Source: Saprospiraceae bacterium (GTDB taxonomy: Bacteria > Bacteroidota > Bacteroidia > Chitinophagales > Saprospiraceae). Taken from it: a DNA stretch of 64,000 nt. The translations under genes were made by a program, and so were the position numbers. Each line of letters opens with the position of its first letter. The first letter of the stretch is position 1. Shown piece after piece: positions 7,201 to 62,633 of the stretch. The notes under the pieces were generated by a model that was given only the letters and a program-made list of their open reading frames with translations, was not told the DNA's origin and did no database searches. The stretch spans positions 62,001-126,000 of the forward strand of contig JALHQW010000003.1 in NCBI GenBank assembly GCA_022841745.1, in the 5' to 3' direction.

Positions 7201-7421
7201 ACGTGCTCTACTTCCGCAGCAATATCGTGGTGGAAATGGAATTGGCCATCTACAACCGTTGGGGCCAGCGAGTCTTCTTTACCGAGGACCAAAGTATCGG
7301 ATGGGATGGGAAATTCAATGGGCAGCCACTTTCCCCCGATGTATATGGCTTTTACCTGCGGGCAAAATGCTACAATGGGAATGAGTATTTCAAGAAAGGG
7401 AATATTACGCTACTGCGTTGA
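1212..7421 (+). CDS. Giant PKD/Ig-repeat surface protein with T9SS type B (CHU_C) sorting domain
   Basis: A predicted secreted adhesin of 2069 residues. I start at the ATG at 1212, because a signal peptide follows at once (MKNPKQIFRTSALAALMVIG, cleavage near VFA/THIVGG); a TTG at 1155 would only add 19 unlikely residues. The N-terminal domain beginning THIVGGELGYRYLGND is typical of gliding-associated surface proteins. At least three PKD-type modules are visible (WDFGDTTTVND near base 3000, WDFGDNTTVND near 4250, and one near 2255-2340). A second repeat recurs at least five times, around a WSPSTGLSCTNCPxP core, and is rich in paired cysteines. Residues from about 1973 to the end (LPNAFTPNDDDG, then YNRWGQRVF and WDGKFNGQPL) form the CHU_C/gliding-motility C-terminal domain used for type B T9SS export. 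It probably forms an operon with the OmpA-like gene upstream. The ligand is unknown. Confidence 0.9.
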   Translation: MKNPKQIFRTSALAALMVIGASVYSPVFATHIVGGELGYRYLGNDTFLITLDLYRDFCGENAAGLDFYSFIDFFDENGNQLPQSIIPNSQKTLNQISVDTIPNNIAGDPCLFVPSNVCIERSRWERKYKITSPGGFYVVYQRCCRNDNILNILNSLNSGATYFLHITPLARQFQNNSPSFGFYPPVFVCVNTPLNHPHAATDIDGDSLVYKLYTPFLGAAPNLEQPQPAPSGAGIGIISPPPFDTVTLNAPYYNLQQMLGPSSSPLAIDQNTGLLTALPNIQGRFTIGVLVEEYRNGELLSIVRRDFQYVVGECAKLDVQIVAPDAQCDNLTVHFQNETDVAQNFIWYFDWPNPTPFSTQKEVSFTYPDTGTYVIALVAEPVGACVDTGFHEIFLQLNSLTADFNWQTYDCTNQSVLVLEDLSVDTVSPIVSWHWEVNYGGTTLFSSIQNPVFQIPNPSSGTIKLTVISENGCEQVKIDSFEAGGNNPLDHLDTVSVCLGNIAQLNPNGPTTGFTYLWGLPVPPGQQNLPNPSVSPMVNTTYPVTITGFNNLCQSTGSVTVVVFQPVQLAFAPDTDCDATIVHFVNQSQNAPTGVVWDFGDTTTVNDVSNQYSPTYDYPAFGSYTVTLMTPPNAVCKDTIQQDILLEPKTLEAAFSFEYSSCEEEVVTVQFMDETNNSEDDTNNWLWTFSGVVTGTSTLMNPIVQVQQDGWLYVTLKAMTSENCSDTTALDSLYIDVTELPNIENNGEVLGCLTSGVTLNPGGDTSYVYTWSPSTGLSCTNCPSPHANPSQTTTYTVTVTNLNGADTCDITRQIIVRVPPNIQLNGSDDVTTCDQTTTLSASAGILPIDFAWFNQSGQQIAGDVSSITVPVSGYSYYIVRGTDLESCHYYDTIHVVGGSPNIEAVGDQIICSDGALNIFATNLDPNDTLTWQWLPDPIFSGPTNVPNPSVSLLTGDRTLYVTATNQFGCTTTDSVYVAVVDINNSLDFDYSVSCNGSTVQFTNTSTNAFNFAWDFGDNTTVNDTSFDDNPAYTYPGPGTYTVKLTMGFDLACVDTLEKPVEILTTQYVPDFTYEYISCETDSVLVQFNDATTIFQVGTTVESYSWVTSNGDTSTLANPIFTVYAGQEFIVTMNIFTSNGCDGSKTEELKLEFIEEYLPDTTVLCLGDSLAINPLGSTEYTYHWTPNIAISDQNAANPTVWPTQTTVYTVEITSLVPDTCSITREITVFVPTKIDVTAPVDTLTCGETVTLCATTNLPQAQFEWAIIPDGFIGSGSCLSVLPSNDTNYEIIATDQYGCQDRDTVFVADEQVRINWQGLGGECPETEQVLTVNNLVADHILNYAWTATGSGQVLPPATGPTATIVTPIAGQISNYTVVATNQFGCTGSVTQFVNSYDFVPTVVESDTTCPNVTQPLNPGANPNLNYVWSPSLPLSCSTCPNPDVTVSQPTDFTVVVSAMFGANVCSDTIEVNLFAPPVIEIEATVDTFTCGEPIVIAAQTNITNPSIQWKDSAGTLVGLNVNQITVDPADMETYTICVTDAFQCTALEAIVVENRQLDLELTGAGVIDTCPMPSYNICIINLDPEDLLDYDWTASNGGTIISGDGTACPEVTTEQGETSVFEVVVTNQWGCSSTEQFDITTFAFDPMVRATVDICPEVPTPINPAAEGSTLDYYWTPSTGLSCTNCPNPEATLSANQFYQVTILGYNGLDTCSFTQTVQVRVAPKINLEALPTDTVLCDSSDLLLTATYTSPFVTDFAWSQTLNFSNPFATTPTVTVTASGTELYYVQLTDTLGCHDTALVTVYAYPVDISVEDTLSYCEEIGSLFVPVTNHHPDQTLTFTWTPTDYIEVQNPDGSIQLVGLPMDETYTVTAVNQYGCEETETSEVFYYDIEPTLDSITSTEDTIIFGSGQFSQLGINDWPGYTYEWSPSEGLSDPSIPNPTAMPEETTTYVLTVTDQGGCTATRTVTIFVWNPDCDEPNLFLPNAFTPNDDDGNSMNDVLYFRSNIVVEMELAIYNRWGQRVFFTEDQSIGWDGKFNGQPLSPDVYGFYLRAKCYNGNEYFKKGNITLLR

Positions 7422-7491
7422 TTGCGGGTTATCGGATTACCAGATTGCGGATTATCGGATTGCGGATTGCGGATTGGGGGGCTGCGAAATA
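7420..7491 (+). repeat. Left heptamer array of an inverted pair (GGATTGC units)
   Basis: About ten 7-8 bp units related to GGATTGC follow each other, starting inside the TGA stop codon of the adhesin gene (7419-7421) and ending in a G6 run and GCTGCGAAAT. Bases 7441-7490 match the reverse complement of 7931-7980 with only about four mismatches in 50, so the two arrays form a long inverted repeat around the four-helix-bundle gene. Confidence 0.9.
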
Positions 7492-7522
7492 GTCAATTTT
7501 GGAGTGAGGGGGAAGGAAGGTC

Positions 7523-7879
7523 TTATTTTTTCCTTCTTTTTGAAGTGTTGATGCTAGCCACAATGATGGACAGCAATTCATTGGCTTCTTTCCATAAGGG
7601 ACTAACTGTCGCCCTATGTTCTTCTGATAAAGCAACGGTAAATTCAAGCCAGAACATAGTCTCGTCAAGTTCCTCTTCTACCGTTCCGAGTTTTGAAACA
7701 AAATCAGGCTTGGATTTTGGCCGACATGCTGCCCTGTAATTTGCAGCACACGATGGACCACTGCGAACAATTTGGTTTCTTATCGTCCTGCAACCGGGCG
7801 TATCTGGTAATGATTCACCGAATTTCACAATAGTAACAGCAAACCGCTTTAGCCTTTCTTGTAGTTCTTTTTCCGTCAT
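7523..7879 (-). CDS. Four-helix-bundle protein, 23S rRNA intervening-sequence (IVP/bAvd-like) family
   Basis: A 118-residue protein starting MTEKELQERLKRFAVTIVKF. I prefer this ATG at 7879 to the frame's upstream extension to 7948, which runs into the flanking repeat. The family hallmarks are the N-terminal helix, the segment RTIRNQIVRSGPSCAANYRAA, and an acidic second half (LGTVEEELDETMFWLEF) ending in a lysine/arginine tail. Members were first found as ORFs inside intervening sequences of 23S rRNA genes and resemble the Avd accessory protein of diversity-generating retroelements; their role as stand-alone chromosomal genes is not established. No reverse transcriptase, template repeat or rRNA gene is nearby. 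The gene sits alone between the arms of a nearly perfect 50-bp inverted repeat, which suggests a small mobile or formerly mobile cassette (inference). Confidence 0.85.
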   Translation of the reverse strand: MTEKELQERLKRFAVTIVKFGESLPDTPGCRTIRNQIVRSGPSCAANYRAACRPKSKPDFVSKLGTVEEELDETMFWLEFTVALSEEHRATVSPLWKEANELLSIIVASINTSKRRKK

Positions 7880-7930
7880 AGTATGTTTATTTTGAGTTTT
7901 TAATTTGCCAATAAAACCTCCATCAATGCC

Positions 7931-7987
7931 AATTTCGCAGCCCCCCAATCCGCAATCCGCAATCCGAAATCCGCAATCGGTTATTCC
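7931..7987 (+). repeat. Right heptamer array of the inverted pair (GCAATCC units)
   Basis: Seven or eight tandem units of the type GCAATCC form the reverse complement of the array at 7420-7491. The inner end carries the same ATTTCGCAGCCCCCC sequence in inverted orientation. The array ends five bases before the stop codon of the minus-strand DUF58 gene (7992), so the cassette fills nearly the whole convergent gap between two genes. Confidence 0.9.
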
Positions 7988-7991
7988 GCAA

Positions 7992-9314
7992 TCAAATCAT
8001 ATTCCTCGACTTCAATTCCAAATACTTATTGACCGTGTTCATGGACAAATCCTCGGGGCGGGTGAGGATGGTCTGGATGCCGTGCTGGCGCAACACATGG
8101 GCCATGGCTGACTTCTCGGCGAGATAGTTTTGCGCCATTGTTTGGGTATAGATTCCTTCCACGGTCTTTGCTTCTTCCCTCACAAAGTCCTGAATTTCCG
8201 TGTTTTCAAAAAAGATGACCACCAGCAGGTGAAAAGTGTTGATGCGGCGCAGGTGGGGCAGCACCCGCTCCAGGGCGTACATGTTCTCGAAATTAGTGTA
8301 GAGCATGATGAGGCTGCGCCCATTGATGAGCTTGCGGGCGATGTGGTAGAGCAGTTCGTAGTTGGCCTCCAGCGGGCGCTCTTTTTCGTTGTATAGGGCA
8401 TGGAGTATCTTGTTCAACTGGTTCGCCTTGCGGTCGGCCTTGATGGTGGAGCCGATTTTATCGGAGAAGGTGATGAGGCCCGCCTTGTCGTATTTTTTCA
8501 GGGCGATGTTGGAAATGGCGAGGCTGGTGTTGATGGCATAGTCGAGTAGGCTGAGGCCATTGAAGGGCATTTTCATGGAGCGGCTCTTGTCAATCAGGCA
8601 ATAGACCTGCTGGGAGCGCTCGTCCTCGTATTGGTTCACCATGAGGTTGCCCTGGCGGCTGGTGGCTTTCCAGTTGATGCTGCGGTAATCGTCGCCTAGC
8701 ACGTAGTTCTTGATCTGGTCGAACTCGTAGCTATGGCCGATTCGCCGGATTTTGCGAAGCCCATCCGTAGCCGTCACCCGGTTGAAGGCCAGCAGTTCAT
8801 AGTGCTTCATCTGCAAGACAGAGGGGAAAACGGGCACGTCCATCGGCTGGGCCGACAGGAAACGGCGCTGCACCAGCCCCAGTTTTGTTTCCGCAAAAAT
8901 ATTGGCCATACCAAAACTGTACTCCCCACGGGTGAGCGGCCTTAGCTCGTAGGCCAGCGAGCGCTGCTCCCTGGCGTTCAAGGCCAGCGCCCGCTCGAAA
9001 TCCCTGACCTGGAACTGCACGGGCAACTCGTCCACCACCGTCAGCCACAGCGGGTGCGGCGATTGGTTCTTGATGTCCAGCACCACTTTGTTCTCATCGC
9101 TCAAAGAGAGCAAGGCGGGCAGTTTGCGCTCCGCCGTCACGCTGATTTTTTTGCCAAAAAGCAAGGCTAAATCCACCAAGGTCAGGATGGCCGCCAAGCA
9201 GAAAAAACCAATGGCCACGGGGTAAATGACCGGCACGGCATAGCCCAGCACAAATAGCACGGTGGCCGAACCAAAAAGGTAAAAAAAACGGTTGGAGAGG
9301 TATAGGTTGCGCAT
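7992..9314 (-). CDS. DUF58 domain protein
   Basis: A 440-residue protein with two N-terminal membrane helices (about residues 8-50: FFYLFGSATVLFVLGYAV, then YPVAIGFFCLAAILTLVDLA). An extracytoplasmic beta domain follows, then the DUF58 signature: EFDQIKNYVLGDDYRSINWK and NLMVNQYEDERSQQVYCLID. The last part is a von Willebrand A-like domain with an altered MIDAS start, DKSRSM. DUF58 proteins usually occur in operons with MoxR AAA+ ATPases and VWA membrane proteins and are thought to act in assembly or chaperoning of envelope complexes. Here no moxR gene is adjacent, so it stands alone. The family call is secure; the biochemical role is unknown. Confidence 0.9.
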   Translation of the reverse strand: MRNLYLSNRFFYLFGSATVLFVLGYAVPVIYPVAIGFFCLAAILTLVDLALLFGKKISVTAERKLPALLSLSDENKVVLDIKNQSPHPLWLTVVDELPVQFQVRDFERALALNAREQRSLAYELRPLTRGEYSFGMANIFAETKLGLVQRRFLSAQPMDVPVFPSVLQMKHYELLAFNRVTATDGLRKIRRIGHSYEFDQIKNYVLGDDYRSINWKATSRQGNLMVNQYEDERSQQVYCLIDKSRSMKMPFNGLSLLDYAINTSLAISNIALKKYDKAGLITFSDKIGSTIKADRKANQLNKILHALYNEKERPLEANYELLYHIARKLINGRSLIMLYTNFENMYALERVLPHLRRINTFHLLVVIFFENTEIQDFVREEAKTVEGIYTQTMAQNYLAEKSAMAHVLRQHGIQTILTRPEDLSMNTVNKYLELKSRNMI

Positions 9315-9357
9315 CGGATGGTTAAAATTGAGGCAAAATAAAGGAAATTAAGGCATA

Positions 9358-9654
9358 TCAAGTGTCAAGTTCAAAATCGAATAATTCTTTGGGAGGGACG
9401 CCGAGCGCACCTGCTATCTGGAATACCTGACTGATGCTCGTGTTGATGATGCCCCGCTCGATGCGGCTGATTTGGCTAAGCTCCAAATCCGAGGAATAGG
9501 CCAACGCCTCCTGCGTGAAGCCTTTTGCAAGCCTCAGCTCCCTTAAGCGCTGCCCAAACGCCTTGATGCCCGCCTCGTGCCTCGTTTGTTTTTTCACGGG
9601 GGCAACATGAGGCGATGTTAAAATTTTTCTTATGGCAAATACGCCATAAATCAC
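9358..9654 (-). CDS. XRE-family helix-turn-helix regulator
   Basis: A 98-residue protein made almost entirely of one HTH_3/XRE DNA-binding domain, residues about 31-88: FGQRLRELRLAKGFTQEALA, then LELSQISRIERGIINTSISQ and a final helix pair ending in ELFDFELD. The first 25 or so residues (MIYGVFAIRKILTS) do not look like part of the fold, so the true start may be internal. It lies 43 bp upstream of the DUF58 gene on the same strand and could be cotranscribed with it, and it is divergent from the lipoprotein gene at 9774. Small XRE proteins of this type usually repress nearby genes; the target is not evident from the sequence. Confidence 0.85.
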   Translation of the reverse strand: MIYGVFAIRKILTSPHVAPVKKQTRHEAGIKAFGQRLRELRLAKGFTQEALAYSSDLELSQISRIERGIINTSISQVFQIAGALGVPPKELFDFELDT

Positions 9655-9773
9655 AAACCGTTCTTATGTTGGCGTTGAAATCCATGCAAACAAAAACGCT
9701 TAGGTCAGCGAATAGTACCAAAGTCGGGCAAGGCCATAGGAACCGTTCAAGCATAAGGGCGTGATGCCAGTGC

Positions 9774-12236: not shown

Positions 12237-12297
12237 TGATTTATCATAATTCACACGTGTTTCATCAATTGGTTTTTGCAGCTAATTTTTAGCTTTA

Positions 12298-12327
12298 TTG
12301 GAAGTTATCTGGAAAAAAGTAATTTTG
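12298..12327 (+). promoter_or_regulatory. Bacteroidota-type promoter, TTG-N19-TAATTTTG
   Basis: TTG at 12298-12300 is followed after 19 bp by TAATTTTG (12320-12327), matching the TAnnTTTG -7 element used by the Bacteroidota primary sigma factor. It would give a leader of roughly 190 bases before the gene at 12522. No secondary structure that would explain such a leader was recognised, apart from an imperfect palindrome (AGGGTTTAAAACCCT) near 12437. Confidence 0.45.
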
Positions 12328-12521
12328 CAGTCTTCCAACTAACGCCAATTTGCCCAAAAACCTTTGATATGCAAGATGAAAAATGAAATTTTGGAAGTAG
12401 GTCATTAGAGTTTAAAGGTAATACGGTGTCAACAGGGTTTAAAACCCTACCTACGCTATGTATTTGGCTGACAACTTAATATGGCCTGCTTCCGAATATT
12501 TATTGCCCATAGAGCAAGAAC

Positions 12522-13514
12522 ATGATGAAGTTGAAACCTAATGCTATGACAAATTCCTTTTCAACAAAATCTGGCAAAACGCTTTTCTCACGTCAAATAA
12601 GTTCAGAAGACGCAGCCCTCCTCGTAAAGCAGAAGCAAGGGCAGTTGTTGGACGATTACTCAAGTGATATTTGCGAGTACTATCGCTATTTGCTAAACGA
12701 TGGCGCAGTGGTAAATATTCCCGCAGGCCCAGACGCTTACATCTACGAACCTTACGACGCCTTCATTGACCACATGGAGGAGACCTATATCGCCAAGAAA
12801 CTTTCCAAGGAACGCCCGTTTTTACTAACCAAGCGACTTGCCAATGGGAATTCTATCCAAGTTGAAAAAATATACGGCGATGAGATTGACCGTTTGAAAG
12901 CCCTGTCACAATACTTTGGTAATTCAAAGCAAGCGTTCCTGTTGCCAGATGGCCGGGTAATGGAAAACCGAAGTATTGAAACATATCTTTACCGAAATGC
13001 AGAGGACTATGAAGCCTTGACAGAGCACGTAAGAAACGCCACTAGGCTGAGCCATAAAATCAATAAAGGTGAATTGGACGGCGATATTTGGCTATATCCA
13101 TGCGCCTTGAACCCCTATGACACTGAATTCCCCGACCACGCAAAGGAACTGGCAAGCCGCTTACCCCGGTTGATTAACGCCCCCGAAACCCTTTTCAATT
13201 TTTCATGGGGCAGCTTGGTGGATATTGACTTCTACCTCTACAAAAACGTAATAAGCCAAGAATTTTCGGAACAAGTCTTCCTGCCGCTAATAGCCTATAT
13301 CGGGGAATCTTATATCAAGCAGAAAGGTGGCCAATGGGAGATGCAATACAACCATGCTTGTGGCGATTGGCTGCCCGATGTGCGGCAAGCCGACGGGGAG
13401 TTGAAAATGCTCTACTACCCCATTTCCATCATCCTGAACCCAGAAGAAGGGAAGGGGACTTATTATGCGCTGAGAGCGGCGTTTTCGCATATTGCGTCCC
13501 ATCCAGTTGACTGA
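12522..13514 (+). CDS. Hypothetical protein, possible immunity-like C-terminal domain
   Basis: A 330-residue protein without signal peptide or membrane segments, so probably cytoplasmic. Starts at 12522 or 12546 are both possible. I do not recognise the N-terminal half. In the C-terminal half, FNFSWGSLVDIDFYLYKN and then LPLIAYIGESYIKQKGGQWE resemble the motif (aYiGE...GGrW) found in several small families often linked to contact-dependent immunity or DUF3806-like proteins; this is a weak, pattern-level resemblance. It is downstream of the lipoprotein with a nuclease-like C-terminus, separated by 285 bp that contain a promoter of their own. A toxin-immunity relationship is possible but unproven. 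Confidence 0.5.
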   Translation: MMKLKPNAMTNSFSTKSGKTLFSRQISSEDAALLVKQKQGQLLDDYSSDICEYYRYLLNDGAVVNIPAGPDAYIYEPYDAFIDHMEETYIAKKLSKERPFLLTKRLANGNSIQVEKIYGDEIDRLKALSQYFGNSKQAFLLPDGRVMENRSIETYLYRNAEDYEALTEHVRNATRLSHKINKGELDGDIWLYPCALNPYDTEFPDHAKELASRLPRLINAPETLFNFSWGSLVDIDFYLYKNVISQEFSEQVFLPLIAYIGESYIKQKGGQWEMQYNHACGDWLPDVRQADGELKMLYYPISIILNPEEGKGTYYALRAAFSHIASHPVD

Positions 13515-13534
13515 AAACTGTTGACCCACAAGTT

Positions 13535-13542
13535 TAATTTTG
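13535..13542 (+). promoter_or_regulatory. -7 promoter element TAATTTTG
   Basis: TAATTTTG followed by C matches the Bacteroidota TAnnTTTG box and lies 19 bp before the ATG of the small secreted protein at 13562, giving a leader of about ten bases. A TTG at 13521 is too close to be an ideal -33 element. Confidence 0.5.
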
Positions 13543-13561
13543 CACAAATAAACTTCATTGA

Positions 13562-13930
13562 ATGAAAGCGCTTGTTGCTATCTTACTCATTGTTCCACTG
13601 CCCCTCCTCGCCCAGACCGACACTACCGCCCACCACAGCATGATAAAAGGCCTCATCAGCTACCGCAACGAGTTGATTGCCCGCAACCCAGAAGCCTTCC
13701 AGCGGATGTGGCAGTTGGAGCAGCTCTGGAACGAGCCTGACCAAGAGTCCGTGAGCGATTTTGTGATGAATGTGATTTTTGCAAACCAGCTTAACAGCAG
13801 GTCGCCCGAAAGAATCCTCAAAAAGTACCTGAAATATGTGCCGTTTTATGTAAACCATTGCCGAAAGGGGCTTCATCTTTGCAGCGGAAAAGCCAAGCCG
13901 CATTACAGCTCAAGAAGGTACGTTTTTTGA
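13562..13930 (+). CDS. Small secreted hypothetical protein
   Basis: A 122-residue product with a clear signal peptide (MKALVAILLIVPLPLLAQ/TD), so the mature protein is about 104 residues and exported. The mature part is helical and charged, with two cysteines close together near the C-terminus (HCRKGLHLC) that might form a disulfide or bind metal. No family is recognised. The gene ends 52 bp before the flavoprotein gene at 13983 on the same strand. Confidence 0.7.
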   Translation: MKALVAILLIVPLPLLAQTDTTAHHSMIKGLISYRNELIARNPEAFQRMWQLEQLWNEPDQESVSDFVMNVIFANQLNSRSPERILKKYLKYVPFYVNHCRKGLHLCSGKAKPHYSSRRYVF

Positions 13931-23640: not shown

Positions 23641-23700
23641 GTTGATAAGGGTTGATAACGGTTGATAAGGGTTGATGGGGATTGATAGGGGTTGAGAATG
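23641..23700. repeat. Six-copy 10-bp tandem repeat (GTTGATAAGG)
   Basis: Six consecutive decamers related to GTTGATAAGG occupy exactly 60 bp, beginning 13 bp upstream of the minus-strand start codon at 23627, in the leader or promoter region. Copy-number change here could alter expression of the secreted protein (inference). Confidence 0.85.
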
Positions 23701-31263: not shown

Positions 31264-32568
31264 ATGTCAAAAGTAAAACCTGCTACTGGCAAACTCGGCA
31301 TCCTGACCCCTGGAATGGGCGCCGTTGCCAGTACTTTCATGGCGGGCGTCATCGCCGTCAACAAGGGCCTCGCCAAGCCCATCGGTTCTGTCTCGCAAAT
31401 GGGCGACATCCGCCTTGGCAAGCGCACCGACAACCGCAACCCCCTCATCAAGGACTTCGTGCCCCTCGCCAAACTGACCGATATCGTGTTCGGCGGCTGG
31501 GACATCTTCGAGGACAATATGTACGAGTCGGCCATCCATGCCAAAGTGCTCGACAAGACCCTCCTCGACCAAATCCGTCCGGAACTGGAGGCCATCAAGC
31601 CGATGAAGGCAGTCTTCGATAGGGAATACGTCAAGCGCCTCGACGGCCCCAACGTGAAAACGGGTGCCAATAAAATGGAACTCGCCGAGGCCATCATGGA
31701 AGACATGCGCCGCTTCAAGGCCGAGAACGGCTGCGACCGCCTTGTAATGGTTTGGTGCGGAAGCACCGAGATTTACATCGAGCCGAGCGAGGTGCATTCC
31801 ACACTTGCGAAGCTGGAAGAAGGCATGCGCAACAACGACCCGAACATCCCGCCGAGCATGATTTATGCCTATGCTGCGGTGAAAATGGGCATCCCATACG
31901 CCAACGGTGCCCCTAACCTCTCCTGCGACGTGGAGGCCATGGTCGAACTGGCCAAGCTGACCAAAACCCCCATCGCTGGCAAGGACTTCAAGACAGGCCA
32001 AACGCTGATGAAAACCATCGTTGCCCCCGGCTTGAAGGTACGGGCGCTCGGAATCCGTGGCTGGTTCTCCACCAACATCCTCGGCAACCGTGACGGAGAG
32101 GTGCTCGACGACCCGGACAACTTCAAGTCCAAGGAAGTCTCCAAGCTCGGCGTACTCGAAGAAATCCTGAAACCAGAGGAAAACCCCGACCTCTACGGCG
32201 ACCTCTACCACAAGGTGCGCATCAACTACTACCCACCCCACGGCGACAACAAGGAGGGCTGGGACAATATTGACATCTTCGGTTGGCTTGGCTACCCGAT
32301 GCAAATCAAGATTGACTTCCTCTGCCGTGACTCCATCCTCGCAGCGCCCATCGTGCTCGACCTGGCCCTGTTCCTCGACCTGGCCAGCCGTTCCGAGCTT
32401 TATGGCATCCAGGAGTGGCTGTCGTTCTACCTGAAGTCGCCACAGGCGGCCAAGGGCCTCCACCCAATGCACGATATTTTCCTCCAAAACCAAAAGCTGC
32501 TCAACACCCTCCGCCACCTCATGGGCGAGGAGTTGATCACGCATTTGGGCATGGACTACTATTATTAG
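31264..32568 (+). CDS. ino1: myo-Inositol-1-phosphate synthase
   Basis: A 434-residue NAD-dependent enzyme converting glucose 6-phosphate to inositol 3-phosphate (1L-myo-inositol 1-phosphate). Family motifs are visible: the dinucleotide-binding start LGILTPGMGAVASTFMAGV, NGAPNLSCDVEAM, KTGQTLMKTIVAPGLKVR, GWFSTNILGNRDGEVL and the C-terminal RDSILAAPIVLDL. The length and order of motifs match the bacterial/archaeal group. It is followed, after a heptamer hairpin of 76 bp, by a PgpA-like phosphatase. In Bacteroides an ino1 gene sits with a PgpA-like phosphatase that acts on phosphatidylinositol phosphate, so this pair probably serves inositol-lipid synthesis. The start at 31264 (MSKVKPATGK) is preferred over 31240. 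Confidence 0.92.
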   Translation: MSKVKPATGKLGILTPGMGAVASTFMAGVIAVNKGLAKPIGSVSQMGDIRLGKRTDNRNPLIKDFVPLAKLTDIVFGGWDIFEDNMYESAIHAKVLDKTLLDQIRPELEAIKPMKAVFDREYVKRLDGPNVKTGANKMELAEAIMEDMRRFKAENGCDRLVMVWCGSTEIYIEPSEVHSTLAKLEEGMRNNDPNIPPSMIYAYAAVKMGIPYANGAPNLSCDVEAMVELAKLTKTPIAGKDFKTGQTLMKTIVAPGLKVRALGIRGWFSTNILGNRDGEVLDDPDNFKSKEVSKLGVLEEILKPEENPDLYGDLYHKVRINYYPPHGDNKEGWDNIDIFGWLGYPMQIKIDFLCRDSILAAPIVLDLALFLDLASRSELYGIQEWLSFYLKSPQAAKGLHPMHDIFLQNQKLLNTLRHLMGEELITHLGMDYYY

Positions 32569-32641
32569 GTATGAAGGTATGAGGTATGGAGGTATGGCAA
32601 GGTCCGTGCCCTATACCTCATACCTCATACCTCATACCTCA
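32568..32641. repeat. Inverted pair of heptamer arrays (GGTATGA / TACCTCA)
   Basis: Four units (GGTATGAA, GGTATGA, GGTATGGA, GGTATGG) run from the G of the ino1 stop codon (32568) to 32597, and exactly four TACCTCA units run from 32614 to 32641, three bases before the next start codon. The two arrays are mutually complementary and could form a hairpin between the two genes. Confidence 0.9.
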
Positions 32642-32644
32642 ACT

Positions 32645-33115
32645 ATGTTTTGGAGGATAATCGCAACCGCCTTCGGCGCAGGCTACTCGCCCGTGGCACC
32701 CGGCACGGCTGGGGCAGCGGTGGGTGTGCTGATGCAGTGGGGGTTGAGCGAGTTGTTGCCGGGACAGTTCTCTGGCGGATGGCCACAGGCATATTGGATG
32801 CTGGTGGCCATTCTTGTTTTCTTTTTTTTGGGTGTGGTTGCTTCGCAAAAATTGGAGCCGGAATGGGGGCATGACCCCTCTAAGATTGTAATTGACGAAC
32901 TGGTTGGCGTCTGGGTGGCCATGCTCGGCGTGCCCGTCAATTGGTTGAATCTATTGCTCGCCTTTGGCCTTTTCAGGCTTTTTGATATTTGGAAACCCTT
33001 GGGAATTAGAAAGTTCGAGCGGCTGCCCGGCGGCTGGGGCGTCATGCTGGACGATGTGGCAGCGGGGGTAGCGGCGGGGATATGCTTGCATGGGTATTTG
33101 TGGTTGGTTGGGTGA
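32645..33115 (+). CDS. pgpA: PgpA-like phosphatase (phosphatidylglycerophosphatase A family)
   Basis: A 156-residue integral membrane protein. It has the PgpA pattern: GYSPVAPGTAGAAVGVL, the central DPSKIVIDELVGVWVAM and the C-terminal DIWKPLGIRKFERLPGGWG followed by MLDDVAAGVAAG, with about four membrane segments. The start at 32645 (MFWRIIATAFG) directly follows the repeat. PgpA in E. coli dephosphorylates phosphatidylglycerol phosphate. Here the neighbour is inositol-phosphate synthase, and a homologue in the Bacteroides inositol-lipid cluster dephosphorylates phosphatidylinositol phosphate, so that is the more likely substrate (inference). Confidence 0.88.
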   Translation: MFWRIIATAFGAGYSPVAPGTAGAAVGVLMQWGLSELLPGQFSGGWPQAYWMLVAILVFFFLGVVASQKLEPEWGHDPSKIVIDELVGVWVAMLGVPVNWLNLLLAFGLFRLFDIWKPLGIRKFERLPGGWGVMLDDVAAGVAAGICLHGYLWLVG

Positions 33116-51864: not shown

Positions 51865-51885
51865 ATTCATATCTGGTGAAATAAG

Positions 51886-52002
51886 GTTGGCAGTTGGCAG
51901 TCACTAAGCAGTCTTACAGTCAAAAGTACTTTGTCTTGTACCACTGCCTTGACTAAACAATTGTCGAACTGACTGCCAACTGCCACCTGTCGAACTGCCA
52001 AC
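51886..52002. repeat. Inverted heptamer arrays (GTTGGCA / TGCCAAC)
   Basis: Two GTTGGCA units at 51886-51899 face three TGCCAAC-type units and a diverged unit at 51974-52002, separated by about 74 bp. The last unit touches the stop codon of the minus-strand lipoprotein gene (52003). It has the same design as the arrays at 7420, 32568 and 62572 but with a different unit. Confidence 0.8.
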
Positions 52003-52473
52003 TTAACGAAGTATCTTGACCGTGCCCGTTCTAACTGAATTGCTCCAATTTCCCGCCCGGTCACGCAGCCTAAGGTTGAAGGTCGTCTGCTCCGACGCTT
52101 TGGTGGGGTCGAGGAGGATGGTATGGGCAATCGAAACGGTATGGTCACCGAAGAGTGCATTGACCGACCTCGGTTCTGGGTATAGGTTATACACCAACTT
52201 GTCTTTATCTCGATTATCGGTCAGTTCAATGGCCACATCACCCGTTGTATATGCCTCTGAATCTTGGTCGCCATCAATATAGCGAATGGAGAAAGTCAGT
52301 TTGTCTCGGTGGGCAGTCACGGCATCGGGAAAATAGTTTTCGAGGGAAATCTTTGGTACGTCTGAATACGGTTCAGCAGGGTAATTGGTAACGGGATAAA
52401 CCTCTTCAACAGATTCATCTCCGCAAGAAAGGAACAGGCACATCACCAGCCACGGGTATGGAAATAGCTTCAT
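52003..52473 (-). CDS. Small lipoprotein of unknown function
   Basis: A 156-residue lipoprotein: MKLFPYPWLVMCLFLSCGDE gives a lipid cysteine at residue 17. The mature part is a beta-rich domain (KLTFSIRYIDGDQDSEAY, DVAIELTDNRDKDKLVYN, TTFNLRLRDRAGNWSNSV), reminiscent of Bacteroidota surface lipoproteins with Ig-like fold. No named family. It is divergent from the GNAT gene. Confidence 0.7.
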   Translation of the reverse strand: MKLFPYPWLVMCLFLSCGDESVEEVYPVTNYPAEPYSDVPKISLENYFPDAVTAHRDKLTFSIRYIDGDQDSEAYTTGDVAIELTDNRDKDKLVYNLYPEPRSVNALFGDHTVSIAHTILLDPTKASEQTTFNLRLRDRAGNWSNSVRTGTVKILR

Positions 52474-55899: not shown

Positions 55900-56138
55900 G
55901 TAACACGGACTGCCAGTCCGTGCTTTTGTTTTGCGTAACACGGACTGCCAGTCCGTGCTTTTGTTTTGCGTAACACGGACTGCCAGTCCGTGCTTTTGTA
56001 TTTTCAATTGTCATCCAATCTAACTCAAGAGGAAGCACGGACTAGCAGTCCGTGTTACAAAGCACGGACTAGCAGTCCGTGTTACAAAGCACGGACTAGC
56101 AGTCCGTGTTACAAAGCACGGACTAGCAGTCCGTGTTA
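55900..56138. repeat. Palindrome arrays: three 35-bp and four 27-bp units in opposite orientation
   Basis: Three copies of a 35-bp unit (55900-55934, 55935-55969, 55970-56000 partial) each contain CACGGACTGCCAGTCCGTG, a perfect 19-bp palindrome. After 33 bp of unique DNA, four copies of an inverted 27-bp unit follow (56034-56060, 56061-56087, 56088-56114, 56115-56138), each with CACGGACTAGCAGTCCGTG. The last unit supplies the TAA stop codon of the adhesin gene. The two arrays also form a giant inverted repeat. Confidence 0.95.
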
Positions 56139-59100
56139 CTCCACCGCCACAAACCCCTGCAAAACCGTCCCCTTACCATCGTTCAGCCGAAGCTGGTAGA
56201 AGTAGGTGCCTGGCGGCAATGGCTGCCCGTTATAGGTTCCGACCCAGTCGTTTTGGTAGTCCTTCGATTCAAAAACCGTGGAGCCCCAGCGGTTGAAAAC
56301 CAGGAGGCTGCTGCCCGGCCAACCAGCAGCGCAAGGTATCACGAAGGCATCGTCCAAGCCGTCGCCATCGGGGGTGATGAGGTTCGGGCGGAAGCAGTCC
56401 CCGGCGGCTACGGAGCCGTCCAAACTGATTCGCACGATCGTTTCATCGCAGACATCGGGGCAGGTCATGGAGCAGAGGCGGTAGCGAAAGCCGTCCTCGC
56501 CAAACGAATTGGGGTATGGGAAATAAGAAACGGTTCCATCTGCCCCATCCACCAATCGTCCCTTGGTTGGCGTGGTCAAAACCGTGAAATCCCAAGCTGG
56601 CAGGTTTTGCGTGAAATCGTTTGCCAACAAATTGATATCCAGTAAACTATCATTAAGCGGCAGCGAATAGAAGTCCTCCACGGCTTTTATGTTTTCGAGA
56701 AAAACCACTGCCGTATCGCTGCCTACGCCGGGACAGGTGCCGTTGGTCAATGTCCAAACAAAGCGGTTCTCGCCGGGCAGCAGCCCTAGCACGGTTGAGT
56801 GAGCGGAGGAGGGCTGTACCACCGTCGCCCCGTCCAAGGCCGTCCAATGGCCAGCGCCTACGGTGGGCGGCGTGGCGTGGAGCATGGGTATTTCGTTTGC
56901 TTCGCAAATGGTCTGGTCGTCGCCAGCGAAGGAAGTGCCCGTTTGGGCGGGCATTACTTGCAGGTTGAACGGCACAGAAATCGCTGATTCACAGCCATTT
57001 AGCGTAGCGGATGCGAAATAGCTGCCCGATTGCGCAGCACCTATATTTGTCAAAACAACCACGCCGCTTCCAGAATAGAAAGGCAGCCCGTTTTGACCAA
57101 AATAATAATCATAAACCGCCCCAGCCTGGCTGTTTGCAATGGAAAGCACCATGTCCTCGCCCTCACAGGCCGTGGTCATGCCAGCCATTACGGGTGTCTG
57201 CGGTGTTGGTGCGACAAAGACCGCCGTCTCAAAGGCCAGCGTCGCCGAGCATTGCGGATAACCGATGACCACGAGGTAATCACCCGATTGCCCCGCGGAA
57301 ATGCCCTCCAAAACAGGGTTCGGTACATTGGCGAAAAAGCCCAATGGGCCATACCAATGGTAGCTCGCACCGGGCAGTAGCGTCGCCGAAAGCGGAACGT
57401 CCGTACCCTCGCAAGCAGGGCCGAGCGAACTGGTCGGGTTGCTGGCCAATGCCCCGCTCGGCAGGGCGATGATGGATACCGGGACGAGGTTGGAGGGCGG
57501 CGTCTGACAACCACCAACTGTGGTTTTTACGGAGTAATTGCCTGATTGTGAAAGTGTTGCGTTAGCAGCAAAATAGGTCGGATTGGCCGCCGTGGCCAGC
57601 CACTGGTCGTTGAAATACCAATCGTAGCTCACGCTGTTGCCAGTGGCGGGCGAGGCGTCGAGTTGCAGCGTTTCGCCTTCGCAAAGCAGCGCATCGGCCA
57701 CGGTAACGGTCGGCGTAGCGGGCATTTGACCCACTTCTACAGCCACGCTTTGCGGAGCAGAAACACAGCCCTCGGCGCTGGTGAGCATGAGCGTGTAGCT
57801 ACCCTCGTTTTGCGAAGCGATGGATGAAAAAACCAGTGGAAAAGGCCCTGTCGCCACCGCTGAACCTGTAAACGAAAAGCCATTTGGCCCTGCCCAATGG
57901 TACTGAACTGGCCCACCAACGGGAACTGAATTATTGGCGCTAAGGCTGACTGGACTGCCCTCACAAGTCGATGTGTTGGCCGTCATATCAGTGATAATCG
58001 GGGCTGGATTGACGGGTACGATGACACTTGCCGTTGCCTCGGCAGAACAGCCGTTTGTTTCCACAACCAATTGAAAAACAGTGGTATCGGACAGCGGCAT
58101 GACGGGGTTTTGCTCCAAGGAAACCACTTGTCCGCCCGTACGCCACTCGTAGCTCACGCCCGGTTGGTTAGTAGCAAAAAGTTGCGCAGCACCACCTTCG
58201 CAAACTGCCCCACCATGCCATGCCAGGGCCACGGGGTCGGGCAGCACGGCCACCTGCACAGGCTCGGAGAGCGGCGATGGGCACCCATTCACGATGGTAT
58301 TGACCAAAAACGGCGGCACGGCCAAGGGGTCGTCAAAAGCCAAGGTCAAAGTGGCTTGGCTGCTCCCGATTAGCTCGCTGTTGCCGTTCTTCCATACGAA
58401 CTCCACATCGCCGTAGGGGCTGGGGTTTTGCACGGTCAGCACCATTTCGCTGCCAGGGCAAACGGGGCTGTTGGTGGCCACCAGCGGAGTGGCAGGCACG
58501 GGCAGGATGCCATCCACCACCAACCCAGCCGAAGCGGTACAGCCATTCTGGCCGGTCACCGTGAGATGGTAGGCTCCGATATCGGTCAACCTGGCCTGGT
58601 AAATAACCGGAGTTGGCGAGTCGGAGGCAAAGCCAGCAGGGCCAGTCCAGTGCCAGTCGGTAATGCCCGTCAGGTTGGCGTAGAACTGCAAAGTGCCTCC
58701 CTCGCAAGGTTGGCTGAGGAAAAAATCGGGGTTGGCTTGCGGCTTTTCCAGCACGTCCACCCAGTAGTTGGCCGATTCCACCACGCAGGTGCCCAACGTT
58801 GCCCTCAGTTTGTAGTTACCCTCGGCATTGGGCTGTATCGAGTTGAAAGTCAGCGAATTGGAGATTTGTCCAAACATCGGCGAATTGCCCTTTATCCATT
58901 GGTAGTTCACCTGCGGGGCAGCGTAGGGCTGCACGGCAAGGGTTACATCTTCGCCGGGGCAGGCGGGTCCACTGCCCTGCACCAGCGGCTGCGCCACGGG
59001 ATCGGGGATGCCCGCCACGAGCACGGACTCCGTTGCGGAGCAGCCAAATACATTGCGCACTTGCACCGTGTAGCTGCCATTGGCGGCGCTGTTTGCTGCC

Positions 59101-61301
59101 GCAATGACGGGGTTGGCAGCCTGCGACGTGAACCCGTTTGGCCCAGCCCAAAGATAACTTAGGCCAATTCCGTTTGCATTGGCAGCGAGTGCCAGTGGTT
59201 TAGGGGCGCAGTCGGTTGCAGGGCTGTATTGGTGTTGCGGAGCAATGGTCGGCGGTTGGTTGATGGACACGGTAGCCATCGCTGGAACGCTGGACACACA
59301 GCCATCCTGCCAGACGAGCAGCGAGAAGGTTTGAGCTGCTAAAACATTGCTTATCAACGGGTTGGGTTGGGTTGAAAAAATAGCTGACTCACCTTGGCGG
59401 CGCCATTCGTAGCTGGGATTCGGAAGTGGATTTGCGAACAACTGGGCGGTTCCACCGGGGCATGTAGGGCCGCCCGTTTCGGCAAAAGCCTGTGGCCGGG
59501 GCTTGATGAGGGTGGCCACGGGGAAGCTCATGGCCGTACAGCCTTGCTCGTCGGTGATTTTGAGTTGCCAATTGCCGGAGACATAGGCGTCCATTGTTTG
59601 GTCAATATAAAGGACACTGTCCGCTGTGGTGAGCATTGGAAGTGCCGCACCGAACGGGCCGTACCAATCGAAAACCGATGCCTTGGCAGTGGTGTACAGC
59701 TTCACTTTGTCGCCAAAGCAAATGGCACCGTTCGTCAGCAGGTCGGGTACGGCAGGCAAGGGGTTCACCTGCAACGGAACGGTCGCAGTGGCGGGATCGC
59801 AGCCCGGCGCTTGGAGCAATAGCGTATAATCGCCTGATTGGTAGTTGTTTACATCGAAAACGACGGGGTCTGCGTAGTTGGCCTGGAAGCCTTGCGGCCC
59901 TGTCCAATTGAGGTTCGCATTGGCGGGCAGCGGGCTTGGTGACATGATTTTGAACTGGACATCTTCACCCTCGCAAGCTGCTGTTGGCACTTCGAGTTTC
60001 AGTTCGACCATCGTGTCCGCCACGAGGTTGAGCGGCTGTCCCGTGGTCGTTGCCAAGCAGCCAAGCCGAGTGCCCCGCACCTGTGGTTGGTAGCTGCCGA
60101 TGCCAAGCCCCGTGAAGTGCGGGCTGTTCGACCAGTTTTGGCCGCCATCCACGCTGTATTCGAGGTTGGGAGCGCCGTGCGCAAAGAGCCTTATCGTGCC
60201 GTTCTGGCCGCCTAAGCATACGACGGGGTCGGTGGCTTGAATGCTGTCCAATTTGACCAAACCGTCAGTGAACAGGCAACCGAGGCAGGGAGCAGCGTCC
60301 AATGTGCCGGGACAAATCGGCAAGTTCTCGGCGCTCCCGCCAAATCGGAGCAGGTGGCCGAGGTTGGCCGACTGCGAATTTGGCGGCAAGAAAGGGTCGT
60401 CGTTTTTTACCAAAAACATGGAATCGCCTTGGCAACTTCCCCGGTTTGCGAAGCGCAAAATCGGCGTTTTGGTGCCGGGCAACAGGTCGAAGCCGTTGCC
60501 AGTGGCATTCATTCGGAAGGTGATATAGTCATGGCCGTTGTCCTCCACAGGACTGTCCTGTCGGGAGGTGCTTCCGAAGGAAAAATGGCTGGGAAGCAGG
60601 TTGGTTAGGTTGTGGATTTGGAAAAAATTGGTTGGAACCCGAAGGGAAACCTGCGCATAATCCAATGCTCCAGTTGCCGAATAATCAGCACCCGTGGTCA
60701 GCGAGATTTGGTAGAAATTGTCGGGCAACAGTTCCAACTCGCAGTGAACCAGGCAGTTGGCTGTTTCGAAACAATTGGCCTGACCCTCCTCGTACCGACC
60801 AATCACCGCATTTGCCTGCCCCGCTCCTTCAATGATGAACTTATTGAAAACGGGCAATCCGAGCGAATTGGGCGGCAAGAAGGGGTCATTGGCGGGGTGC
60901 ATGATGTCAAACAGACCTGCGCAGCCAAGTGCATTGCGAAAGGAGAAGAGCCGCACCTCCTGCCCTATGGGGTAGTTGATGGCATCTGTCGCAGCAGCAA
61001 GCGAAAAAACGGCATAGTCCACGCTGGGGTTTTCGACGGGCCGCTGCACGAGGTTGGTCAGTTGCCACTGCCCGACAAGGCTATTGAGCGATGCAAGCTC
61101 AAAGCCGCCCGTTGGCAAGGTGACGACCACCTGCGCAGCATGGGTGATGTGGTCGAGCGGGGGCAACAGGTCGGTATAGGAGCGGGCAATGGCGGTATAG
61201 GTGCCGTCCGCAGCCAGTTCCAATTTCAACTCAATCTGGCCAAAAACTGAAGTGGCCGTTGCACAAGCGAATAGTGTCAGTAAGTGTAGGAGGTTTTTCA
61301 T
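56136..61301 (-). CDS. SprB-like giant surface protein with T9SS type B (CHU_C) sorting domain
   Basis: A 1721-residue secreted protein with signal peptide MKNLLHLLTLFACATATSVF. Residues 22-340 contain two copies of a roughly 150-residue N-terminal domain (MHPANDPFLPPNSLGLPVF and VKNDDPFLPPNSQSANLGHL mark the equivalent ends). The middle is built from about 15 repeats of an Ig-like module around a core such as CEGGTLQFYANLTG, CPGEDVTLAVQPYA and YEWRTGGQVVSLEQNP. Residues 1632-1721 (CFRPNLITPDGDGLDDAFV, then NRWGSTVF and YNGQPLPPGTYFYQLRL) are the CHU_C type B sorting domain. With porP/sprF directly downstream it looks like an SprB-SprF pair for gliding or adhesion. The stop codon is shared with the flanking repeat array. 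Confidence 0.88.
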   Translation of the reverse strand: MKNLLHLLTLFACATATSVFGQIELKLELAADGTYTAIARSYTDLLPPLDHITHAAQVVVTLPTGGFELASLNSLVGQWQLTNLVQRPVENPSVDYAVFSLAAATDAINYPIGQEVRLFSFRNALGCAGLFDIMHPANDPFLPPNSLGLPVFNKFIIEGAGQANAVIGRYEEGQANCFETANCLVHCELELLPDNFYQISLTTGADYSATGALDYAQVSLRVPTNFFQIHNLTNLLPSHFSFGSTSRQDSPVEDNGHDYITFRMNATGNGFDLLPGTKTPILRFANRGSCQGDSMFLVKNDDPFLPPNSQSANLGHLLRFGGSAENLPICPGTLDAAPCLGCLFTDGLVKLDSIQATDPVVCLGGQNGTIRLFAHGAPNLEYSVDGGQNWSNSPHFTGLGIGSYQPQVRGTRLGCLATTTGQPLNLVADTMVELKLEVPTAACEGEDVQFKIMSPSPLPANANLNWTGPQGFQANYADPVVFDVNNYQSGDYTLLLQAPGCDPATATVPLQVNPLPAVPDLLTNGAICFGDKVKLYTTAKASVFDWYGPFGAALPMLTTADSVLYIDQTMDAYVSGNWQLKITDEQGCTAMSFPVATLIKPRPQAFAETGGPTCPGGTAQLFANPLPNPSYEWRRQGESAIFSTQPNPLISNVLAAQTFSLLVWQDGCVSSVPAMATVSINQPPTIAPQHQYSPATDCAPKPLALAANANGIGLSYLWAGPNGFTSQAANPVIAAANSAANGSYTVQVRNVFGCSATESVLVAGIPDPVAQPLVQGSGPACPGEDVTLAVQPYAAPQVNYQWIKGNSPMFGQISNSLTFNSIQPNAEGNYKLRATLGTCVVESANYWVDVLEKPQANPDFFLSQPCEGGTLQFYANLTGITDWHWTGPAGFASDSPTPVIYQARLTDIGAYHLTVTGQNGCTASAGLVVDGILPVPATPLVATNSPVCPGSEMVLTVQNPSPYGDVEFVWKNGNSELIGSSQATLTLAFDDPLAVPPFLVNTIVNGCPSPLSEPVQVAVLPDPVALAWHGGAVCEGGAAQLFATNQPGVSYEWRTGGQVVSLEQNPVMPLSDTTVFQLVVETNGCSAEATASVIVPVNPAPIITDMTANTSTCEGSPVSLSANNSVPVGGPVQYHWAGPNGFSFTGSAVATGPFPLVFSSIASQNEGSYTLMLTSAEGCVSAPQSVAVEVGQMPATPTVTVADALLCEGETLQLDASPATGNSVSYDWYFNDQWLATAANPTYFAANATLSQSGNYSVKTTVGGCQTPPSNLVPVSIIALPSGALASNPTSSLGPACEGTDVPLSATLLPGASYHWYGPLGFFANVPNPVLEGISAGQSGDYLVVIGYPQCSATLAFETAVFVAPTPQTPVMAGMTTACEGEDMVLSIANSQAGAVYDYYFGQNGLPFYSGSGVVVLTNIGAAQSGSYFASATLNGCESAISVPFNLQVMPAQTGTSFAGDDQTICEANEIPMLHATPPTVGAGHWTALDGATVVQPSSAHSTVLGLLPGENRFVWTLTNGTCPGVGSDTAVVFLENIKAVEDFYSLPLNDSLLDINLLANDFTQNLPAWDFTVLTTPTKGRLVDGADGTVSYFPYPNSFGEDGFRYRLCSMTCPDVCDETIVRISLDGSVAAGDCFRPNLITPDGDGLDDAFVIPCAAGWPGSSLLVFNRWGSTVFESKDYQNDWVGTYNGQPLPPGTYFYQLRLNDGKGTVLQGFVAVE

Positions 61302-61804
61302 TCAAACGTTAAACGGCTTACGGTGGACGGCTTACGGTGGACGGTGTGTACACAGCGAGCTGTACCAACGGCAGCGCAGTTGGTGTACGGGTGTTGTTGT
61401 ACTCGTTCTTGTTGAAAACCTTTAGGAAGTTGCAAGCATCGGCGAGCTACAATTTAGCTTTTTACCGATAGGTAGTTTTTTGGTTGTCTGTTGAAAATGG
61501 TAGGATAAGGGGCATTCAGCCCATGGGATGATAACGTGCCTGAGAGATAGCAAGATTTGTGCCGGAGGGGGGTGAGTTGGGATTTTTTTTTAATTTGATA
61601 TATCCAACTCACAACCTCGGGCCCACCCCCTCTGTCTCCATCGCCAGCCCCCCGAACACACACTCGTGTACCCTGCGCAGCGGCTCCTTGTGCACGAAGC
61701 GTTCCAGTCCTTTACATCGAGGGCAAATTCTTTCAAAAGTTCCTTGCCAAGTTAGGGGGAATCACAGATGGTTCAATCTTAAAAAATTGGCCTTATTGGA
61801 TTTC
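61302..61804. other. 503-bp intergenic region with a heptamer array
   Basis: No convincing gene. Five heptads ACGGCTT, ACGGTGG, ACGGCTT, ACGGTGG, ACGGTGT occupy 61313-61347, directly upstream of the adhesin start. The rest has a T-rich run near 61585, and open frames such as 61454-61663 on the minus strand look random. Regulatory sites for the adhesin gene probably lie here, but no classical promoter box was recognised. Confidence 0.6.
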
Positions 61805-61999
61805 TCAAGAATTCAACGCTTTGCTGTCTTTGTTCATCAACAACTTGACAATAAGCAAACCAGCCGCCAGTACCTTGAGGCTAAAACCAAGCAGCAGCAG
61901 TTCGCTAGCATAGGGGTAGGATTCCAACTTAAATAAAGCACCAATAAAAACGGTGATAAACCCCAGTAATAAAATGGAGAGGATGTATTTCAGTTTCAT
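61805..61999 (-). CDS. Small two-helix membrane protein (GldL N-terminal-like)
   Basis: A 64-residue protein with two membrane helices: KYILSILLLGFITVFIGALF and SELLLLGFSLKVLAAGLLIV, joined by KLESYPYA. The phrase GALFKLESYPYASELLLLG recalls the GALFKIxHWPGAxxLLxxG region of the gliding-motor subunit GldL, and Bacteroidota contain many short stand-alone relatives. The homology is a suggestion from pattern only. It lacks the periplasmic part of GldL, so it cannot be a motor subunit by itself. It is a single gene, divergent from the OB-fold gene downstream. Confidence 0.55.
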   Translation of the reverse strand: MKLKYILSILLLGFITVFIGALFKLESYPYASELLLLGFSLKVLAAGLLIVKLLMNKDSKALNS

Positions 62000-62112
62000 G
62001 ATTTGAATTGATTTACTGTCAAAGCTATAAAATCATCGAAGAACAAACCCTATTTTCACCCCCTTTCTTCCCACTCAGCCAATAGCCGATACTTTTTAAC
62101 AGTGGCTCCCGT

Positions 62113-62120
62113 TACTTTTG
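62113..62120 (+). promoter_or_regulatory. -7 promoter element TACTTTTG
   Basis: TACTTTTG matches the TAnnTTTG consensus and lies 40 bp before the ATG at 62161. No clear -33 TTG at 17-21 bp upstream, only a T-rich run. Confidence 0.45.
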
Positions 62121-62160
62121 GGTCATAATTGGAGAATCCGCAATCATTCAACACCTTAAC

Positions 62161-62568
62161 ATGAAAAAATTACTCATCATCACGGGCTTGCTCATCGCTG
62201 GAGCTGCTATTTATGGCATTTATGAATTCAATCGGGGCGCCGTCAGCAACGCCGATGCAAAGTCCGATGTGACCATCTCGGCCAATGAACTACTGGCAGC
62301 CTTCCAGACGGACGAGGCCGCGGCCAACGCCAAGTTCAACGATAAAGTGGTAGAGGTGACGGGCGAGGTTGGCACCACCAAGCAGGAGGAAGGCAAGACC
62401 ATCGTCAGCCTGAATGCGGGCGATTCGATGGCGGGTGTCACCTGCGAACTCGACCCTACGGCCCAGCACAAGCGCACCAATTTCAACACGGGCGACCAAG
62501 TGACCTTCAAATGCACCTGTTCGGGCATTTTGATGGACGTGGTGCTCATCCGCTGCGTGGAAAAGTAA
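62161..62568 (+). CDS. Exported OB-fold (tRNA_anti-like) protein
   Basis: A 135-residue protein with one N-terminal membrane segment (MKKLLIITGLLIAGAAIYGI), uncleaved or weakly cleavable. The rest is an OB-fold domain of the tRNA_anti-like family: VTISANELLAAFQTDEAAAN, KFNDKVVEVTGEVGTTKQEE, VSLNAGDSMAGVTCELDP and FNTGDQVTFKCTCSGILMDV. In this family the fold is often found in exported Bacteroidota proteins; a nucleic-acid role is unlikely outside the cell, so the ligand is unknown. Three cysteines near the end could form a disulfide. The gene ends in a heptamer hairpin shared with the convergent next gene. Confidence 0.75.
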   Translation: MKKLLIITGLLIAGAAIYGIYEFNRGAVSNADAKSDVTISANELLAAFQTDEAAANAKFNDKVVEVTGEVGTTKQEEGKTIVSLNAGDSMAGVTCELDPTAQHKRTNFNTGDQVTFKCTCSGILMDVVLIRCVEK

Positions 62569-62571
62569 GTG

Positions 62572-62633
62572 CTGGATACTGGATACTGGATGCTGGCACG
62601 TGCCCCATCCAGTATCCAGCATCCAGTATCCAG
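62572..62633. repeat. Inverted pair of heptamer arrays (CTGGATA / TATCCAG)
   Basis: Four heptads CTGGATA, CTGGATA, CTGGATG, CTGGCAC (62572-62599) face four heptads CATCCAG, TATCCAG, CATCCAG, TATCCAG (62606-62633). The hairpin fills the convergent gap between stop codons at 62568 and 62640 and could terminate both genes. Confidence 0.9.

Follow-up and report, generated by a model that had tools for sequence, protein, structure and literature searches.

How can short tandem arrays keep a constant period of seven nucleotides while the repeated unit changes from one locus to the next? The question is raised by a 64,000-nucleotide stretch of a Saprospiraceae genome (contig JALHQW010000003.1; this whole stretch is "the window", and array coordinates refer to positions in it), for which a preliminary description had listed five heptamer arrays, four of them inverted and one direct-only. 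All five are present where they had been placed (Table 1). We assign a probability of roughly 0.6 to the reading that such arrays are dispersed palindromic elements of a REPIN/RAYT-like design, many of which have a cognate protein that recognises their unit. The protein is the 23S ribosomal RNA (rRNA) intervening-sequence protein (IVP), a four-helix bundle with an Avd-like fold (PF05635/TIGR02436). Each family of elements would have its own 7- or 8-bp unit, which would form a tandem array in the 5' arm (rich in G) and its mirror image in the 3' arm (rich in C). In many families, the cognate IVP gene would lie between the arms of one copy, with most sampled copies being empty.

One of the arrays in the window encloses such a gene. 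Its product matches PF05635 (E 2.3e-9, 37.8 bits against a cut-off of 33.8) and TIGR02436 (E 1.5e-17), and the gene is one of 13 PF05635 genes in this genome. Inverted arms (score at least 16, within 400 bp) flank 12 of the 13, compared to 3 of 595 random positions. The exception, L082 (arm score 10), is located at a contig edge, and the side that can be read has tandem units. In a motif-free scan, tandem units were detected near all 12 other IVP genes, against 1 of 12 for the far flanks. The unit differs at nearly every IVP locus of this genome. The window IVP is 10-41% identical to the ten other IVPs of the genome with which it was aligned, and the proteins are thus separate lineages of long standing and not recent copies. 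For the 13 IVP loci and two GxxExxY loci, in most cases taken with flanks of 1.5 kb, Rfam gave no match at the gathering threshold, and no rRNA was found.

The arrays were surveyed in a sample of 864 kb (40 stretches of 20 kb and the window) of the 8.4 Mb genome. In the window, period 7 is enriched, as had been proposed (5 runs at score at least 12, against 0.05 per dinucleotide shuffle in 20 shuffles), and the one signal of similar strength is at period 14, a harmonic of 7 (4 runs). The enrichment extends to the whole sample, but there it is not confined to heptads: periods 7, 8 and 10 contribute 48, 26 and 10 runs (of which two per period are stretches of N), compared to 4, 3 and 3 in a single shuffle. 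An inverted partner is found at most 700 bp away for 40 of the 78 sampled arrays, compared to 4 of 78 for a reversed-unit control, and the G-rich strand comes first, pointing inward, in all 40 paired arrays. The inverted design is also apparent from strong hairpins at the three window arrays folded as RNA (z = -8.2 for 32566-32645, -5.9 for 51884-52003 and -8.0 for 62568-62636). The direct-only array (61311-61348) gives no hairpin (z = 0.3).

The units had been described as unrelated. This is correct inside the window, but elsewhere each unit recurs as a dispersed family. Doubled GGATTGC, with at most one mismatch, has 198 overlapping matches genome-wide, against none for the backwards control. 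Families that recur in the sample include GGATTGC, CTGGATG/A, GGTATGA, GTGATTC, GTTGGCA, AAGGATTG, TTCATGGT and GGTTGATAAG, among others. The TTCATGGT family has 62 and the GGTTGATAAG family 63 genome matches, and inverted matches of the GGTTGATAAG and GGTTTCATGG families pair over short distances, as judged by eye from the match listings. A single repeat family diverged by mutation is excluded, because the units differ in sequence and in period and each of them recurs separately. Many of the dispersed arrays carry the unit of an IVP encoded in the same genome: this applies to 44 of the 78 sampled arrays (24 of 780 for shuffled units), and to 41 of 75 when the three arrays that are the arms of sampled IVPs are left aside. 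The three gene-free palindromes of the window also carry the units of other IVPs, GGTATGA that of L075, CTGGATA that of L076 and, by eye, GTTGGCA that of L071.

Unit sequence and period are a trait of the IVP clade, and recognition of the unit by the protein is therefore most likely. Relatives of the L076 IVP were collected from named records, mostly metagenome-assembled genomes (80 loci, 77 testable). Their hosts belong to Bacteroidota, Ignavibacteria/Chlorobiota, Neomarinimicrobiota, Deltaproteobacteria, Calditrichia, Verrucomicrobia, Kiritimatiellae and Hydrogenedentota. Grouping was by record title, and three of these eight groups, which presumably correspond to six phyla under other taxonomies, hold one to three loci. 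Arms score at least 16 in 49 of the 77 loci, compared to 1 of 138 for a shifted control. They consist of GATnCTG-like heptads, and left arms pair with the right arms of other loci in 50 of 385 cases, as expected from a common unit. In 58 of the 77 loci, at least one flank has, on its inward strand, a chain of three or more G[AT]T motifs at period 7, and in 42 both flanks do. The motif was picked after the arms had been seen; the controls gave 7 loci when the left flank was reversed or its opposite strand taken, 2 for the outer flanks and at most 3 at each of the remaining periods between 5 and 12. A motif-free scan found near-flank tandems at 68 of 77 loci (with a period of 7 or 14 in 62 cases), against 5 of 77 for the far flanks.

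The relatives of the window IVP carry GATTGCG, GATTTCG, CGATTGG, ATTTACG and similar units (27 of 29 loci readable). Across the 100 of 146 loci with an arm score of at least 14, arm similarity correlates with protein identity for pairs below 70% identity (rho = 0.463; maximum of 999 permutations 0.154; outer flanks 0.013). The inward arm has more G than C at 95 of the 100 loci, which is consistent with one strand being read. Among 298 genomes of the order, 20 have a close L083-type IVP, and doubled GGATTGC is present in 7 of these, but in only 4 of the 278 others (Fisher p = 6e-7; the E-value limit of 1e-20 was chosen afterwards, and the p-value is uncorrected for kinship, with about three clusters).

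Comparison of orthologous gaps shows that the elements turn over. At the 3' end of the DUF58 gene, this genome and four sister species have GGATTGC/GGATTTC arms in common. The arms enclose an IVP gene in G000, G001 and G013, and a short loop in G006 and G011. Elsewhere, the gap contains another palindrome (G004), other repeats (G012, G007 and G010) or none (G009, G005 and G003); G008 and G002 are unread in this comparison. The pgpA gap contains an array in 7 of 8 readable species (own genome counted), with at least five unit types, three with an ATGGT core, as assigned by reading. GGTATGA, the unit of the own genome, is found in none of the six other array-bearing species, and in G001 an IVP gene (PF05635, 52.8 bits) lies inside the array. 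In 41 comparisons over 21 orthologous gaps, an array is present in both genomes in 13, in the own genome only in 9, in the relative only in 5 and in neither in 14. The unit, by reading, is other than that of the own genome in 6 of the 13 comparisons with two arrays. Hence, some gaps hold the design while units and cargo change, and others gain or lose the array. As the preliminary description had anticipated, units differ between species at a conserved position; some sites keep their unit, but a pattern of only identical arrays at conserved positions was not found. The gap that holds a GGATTGC palindrome in the own genome (L033 18704-18851) measures 760 bp on contig C43 of G001, where GTTGGCA-like repeats and additional coding-like sequence are present.

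What the protein might do with the array can be considered in the light of its fold. The window IVP folded alone gave a poor model (pLDDT 49), which was not used. The L125 IVP modelled with 42 relatives (pLDDT 97) fits the solved IVP relatives 2gsc (TM 0.89-0.91) and 2rld (TM 0.67-0.81), both of which have five chains. An IVP would bind the array in single-stranded form (RNA or DNA) or when folded into a hairpin. A ring in which each subunit contacts one unit of the array would plausibly account for a period that is fixed while the sequence is free; the number five is not reflected in the arrays. The IVP would thereby maintain the element, or spread it into intergenic gaps, as RAYT proteins probably do for REPINs. 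The element would then be mobile and served by a mobilising enzyme, and the intervening sequence (IVS) of 23S rRNA, with the same protein within an inverted repeat, would be such an element that landed in an rRNA gene.

Several points weigh against this reading. PF05635 has, to our knowledge, no known catalytic motif, which leaves the element without a candidate mobilising enzyme. Alignments of six gaps showed no clean insertion with target duplication. For 34 of the 78 sampled arrays, there is no match to an IVP of the own genome at score 13. The unmatched units include GGTTGATAAG, GGGATGA, GACGGTG and GAGTTAC, and in part TTCATGGT, so that some families would have another partner or have lost one. 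Among the 30 best-scoring IVP loci of the window's phylum, clear near-flank tandems are present at 10 (far flanks 3) and arms score at least 16 at just 11, which indicates that arms can be degenerate or absent. The passages on Coxiella in PMC4990558 describe the heptamers as one-sided direct repeats, not as a stem. Finally, the correlation between unit and protein could stem from linked descent without recognition.

This last point leads to an alternative in which gene and arms co-descend as one element, the IVP does not recognise the unit, the hairpins persist for some other reason and the correlation reflects ancestry. At most of the loci examined, the gene is in physical linkage with its arms, and linked descent alone would account for some correlation. 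We nevertheless regard this alternative as unlikely. Arms align across phyla (score at least 12) in 24.9% of 421 pairs, a score raised by their repetitive nature, whereas the adjoining spacer between arm and gene does so in 0.2%; the arms are thus held and the neighbouring non-coding DNA is not. Moreover, gene-free arrays elsewhere in the genome carry IVP units. A process without any partner protein, local copying of heptads by slippage on a hairpin template, had been favoured in the preliminary description over dispersal. It would agree with the variation of unit and copy number between orthologous gaps, and with the mirrored order of variant units in both arms at L054 4510-4646 (by eye), which suggests templated copying between arms. 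It is contradicted by the genome-wide families described above, with their 198 GGATTGC matches and 44 IVP-matched arrays, and by units common to IVP relatives in several phyla; an identical unit at many loci is not expected from a local process. Slippage may lengthen arrays, yet it would not determine the unit, and as an explanation of the arrays we consider it very improbable.

The palindromes could also be transcription terminators, or stabilisers of mRNA 3' ends, that are kept by selection, with IVP genes hitchhiking in safe gaps. The hairpins are stable and are retained in the same gaps of sister species despite the change of unit. The arrays tend to occupy short intergenic gaps, and contact with stop codons had been emphasised from the outset. 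The three stops that had been named are real ends of open frames (7421, 32568 and 52003), but the link is weak in the sample: 29 of 70 array edges facing a stop are within 10 bp of it, somewhat above the expected 20.5 (maximum of 2000 simulations 30), and for edges facing a start the count is 19 of 68 (expected 13.2, maximum 24), all on the basis of home-made gene calls. A special link to stop codons was therefore rejected; it is marginal, and the contact appears mostly incidental. The density of arrays per kb of gap is higher in convergent (0.52) and codirectional (0.46) than in divergent gaps (0.29), in line with a terminator role. Counted per gap, however, divergent (10/81), convergent (11/68) and codirectional (48/343) arrangements are similar (in a stricter set 9/81, 13/82 and 35/386, respectively). 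A T4 run is found near either outer edge in only 5 of 14 palindromes picked by eye. The palindrome at 32566 directly precedes a start codon, the arms at 7420 enclose a gene, and the correlation between unit and protein is left unexplained. We therefore consider a terminator role improbable as the general explanation, somewhat more so than plain co-descent.

A broader view is also plausible, although we consider it somewhat less likely than not. IVPs might form a broad class of ring proteins with sequence specificity, in which each member has its own 7- or 8-nucleotide tandem code. Together with their arrays they would make up an unrecognised class of elements in at least six phyla, with IVSs and the Avd proteins of diversity-generating retroelements (DGRs) as offshoots. 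An IVP clade that is tied to a defined short unit offers a concrete substrate for testing. The association also accounts for intergenic repeats that look like noise, and connects rRNA intervening sequences, intergenic palindromes and retroelement Avd proteins. If the ring-per-unit geometry is correct, it would be a second, unrelated solution for reading evenly spaced repeats.

Other genes and repeats of the genome are also associated with inverted arms. Both of its GxxExxY (PDDEXK_3) genes, L084 and L085, sit in inverted arms with degenerate short tandem units. Arms score at least 16 in 8 of 24 testable GxxExxY loci, these two included (shifted control 1 of 48; 7 of 31 loci were dropped at contig edges), and CACAAAG-like units are found at some GxxExxY loci in other genomes of the order. 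The nuclease-like GxxExxY genes may thus be a second cargo in similar arms. RAYT transposases were considered as partners of the tandem arrays and rejected: of nine Y1_Tnp (PF01797) loci, seven have other, longer palindromes and two lack clear arms. At L086, a Y1_Tnp gene lies between long arrays of a palindromic repeat (CCCCGTCCCGTAGGGACGCAAC...) with a REP/RAYT-type look. At L042 11948-12246, GGGTTTTG/C octads form an array of 299 bp that looks like a telomere and has the unit of the L074 IVP. GGGGGCTGC is suggestive of a shared inner motif, with 6 of 12 occurrences coming after a tandem run, compared to 70 of 2999 random positions and to 0/5, 0/2, 0/1, 1/6 and 1/3 for other G5 words.

In the window itself, a GACGGTG-like family, to which the direct-only array is likened, recurs in the sample, and no cognate IVP for this array was found among the IVP units of this genome. 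At 55900-56139, a terminator-like palindrome (core CACGGACT..AGTCCGTG, T-rich tail) is repeated in two tandem blocks, one of 35 bp x 2.9 and one of 27 bp x 4.0, and the orthologous gaps of two sister species, of about 95 bp, contain a shorter version of the palindrome.

Table 1. Arrays of the window and the genes next to them
Feature	Position	Strand	Remarks
Left arm, GGATTGC heptads	7420..7486	+	ends in GGGGGGCTGC; overlaps stop TGA (7419-7421) of upstream gene
IVP gene between GGATTGC arms	7523..7879	-	118 aa from ATG at 7879; PF05635, TIGR02436
Right arm, inverted GGATTGC heptads	7932..7994	-	inner edge ATTTCGCAGCCCCCC; runs into stop of facing DUF58 gene
DUF58 gene facing right GGATTGC arm	7992-9314		PF01882
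10-bp array GTTGATAAGG	23641..23695	+	member of dispersed palindrome family; 63 genome matches with at most 2 mismatches
GGTATGA palindrome, gene-free	32566..32645	+	fills gap from TAG of myo-inositol-phosphate synthase gene to pgpA start
Genes bordering GGTATGA palindrome			myo-inositol-phosphate synthase (PF07994/PF01658); pgpA (PF04608)
GTTGGCA palindrome, degenerate arms, without IVP	51884..52003	+	unit resembles that at L071 IVP (by eye)
ACGGnnn direct-only array	61313..61347	+	14-bp unit = two heptads; without hairpin
CTGGATA/CTGGATG palindrome, gene-free	62570..62636	+	unit as around L076 IVP gene

Proteins that read evenly spaced repeats are known. TRAP is a ring that binds evenly spaced GAG/UAG repeats, and its fold is unrelated to that of IVPs. 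As a working idea only, the two might be alike in that an oligomeric ring, of five chains in the case of the solved IVP relatives, meets a tandem nucleic-acid site whose spacing is fixed. By fold, the IVPs resemble the DGR protein Avd (4DWL, PF22296). The L125 model superimposes on Avd with TM 0.77-0.78, at weak E-values of 0.15 and 0.48. The L071 IVP, alone among four IVPs scanned, passes the bAvd cut-off, and barely so (40.2 bits, cut-off 40), and its score for the NCBIfam Avd family, 34.4, is below the cut-off of 80.

Heptamer repeats as such are familiar from the short tandemly repeated repetitive (STRR) sequences of cyanobacteria. The TAACTGA repeats of Beggiatoaceae are described in PMC4679880 as having one unit, nearly always direct and, in the main host, mostly upstream of starts. 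Both resemble the present arrays in being intergenic direct heptads of variable copy number, some of which, according to that account, occur in Bacteroidetes; they differ in that many units, inverted pairs and a partner gene are found here.

The closest precedents are the 23S rRNA IVSs and the REPIN/RAYT systems (REPtrons). The intervening sequences, their protein and the heptamers beside one of them have already been published. In the Coxiella IVS, as described in PMC4990558, tandem direct heptamers of strain-variable number directly precede the S23p open reading frame, the transcribed stem is cut by RNase III, and an origin from a mobile element is discussed. From this description, the Coxiella heptamers fit the view that rRNA IVSs are the same kind of element. 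An S23p/IVP (PF05635) gene within an inverted repeat is the shared feature, seen here in 12 of 13 cases. However, the present elements lie between protein genes and not within an rRNA gene, many copies are empty, many unit families coexist in a genome, and the unit tracks the protein clade. What is new is the tie between non-rRNA IVP genes and tandem-repeat palindromes, and between unit and IVP clade; among the hits seen, which were part of long lists from the open-licence literature, no paper made either link. With REPIN/RAYT, as far as the excerpts of PMC3116915 and PMC8266576 describe it, the elements share dispersed intergenic inverted palindromes, a gene beside its own repeats and co-evolution of protein and repeat. 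The difference is in the partner, which here is a four-helix bundle of the PF05635 family instead of a Y1/HUH transposase, and in the arms, which are built from tandem 7-8-mers.

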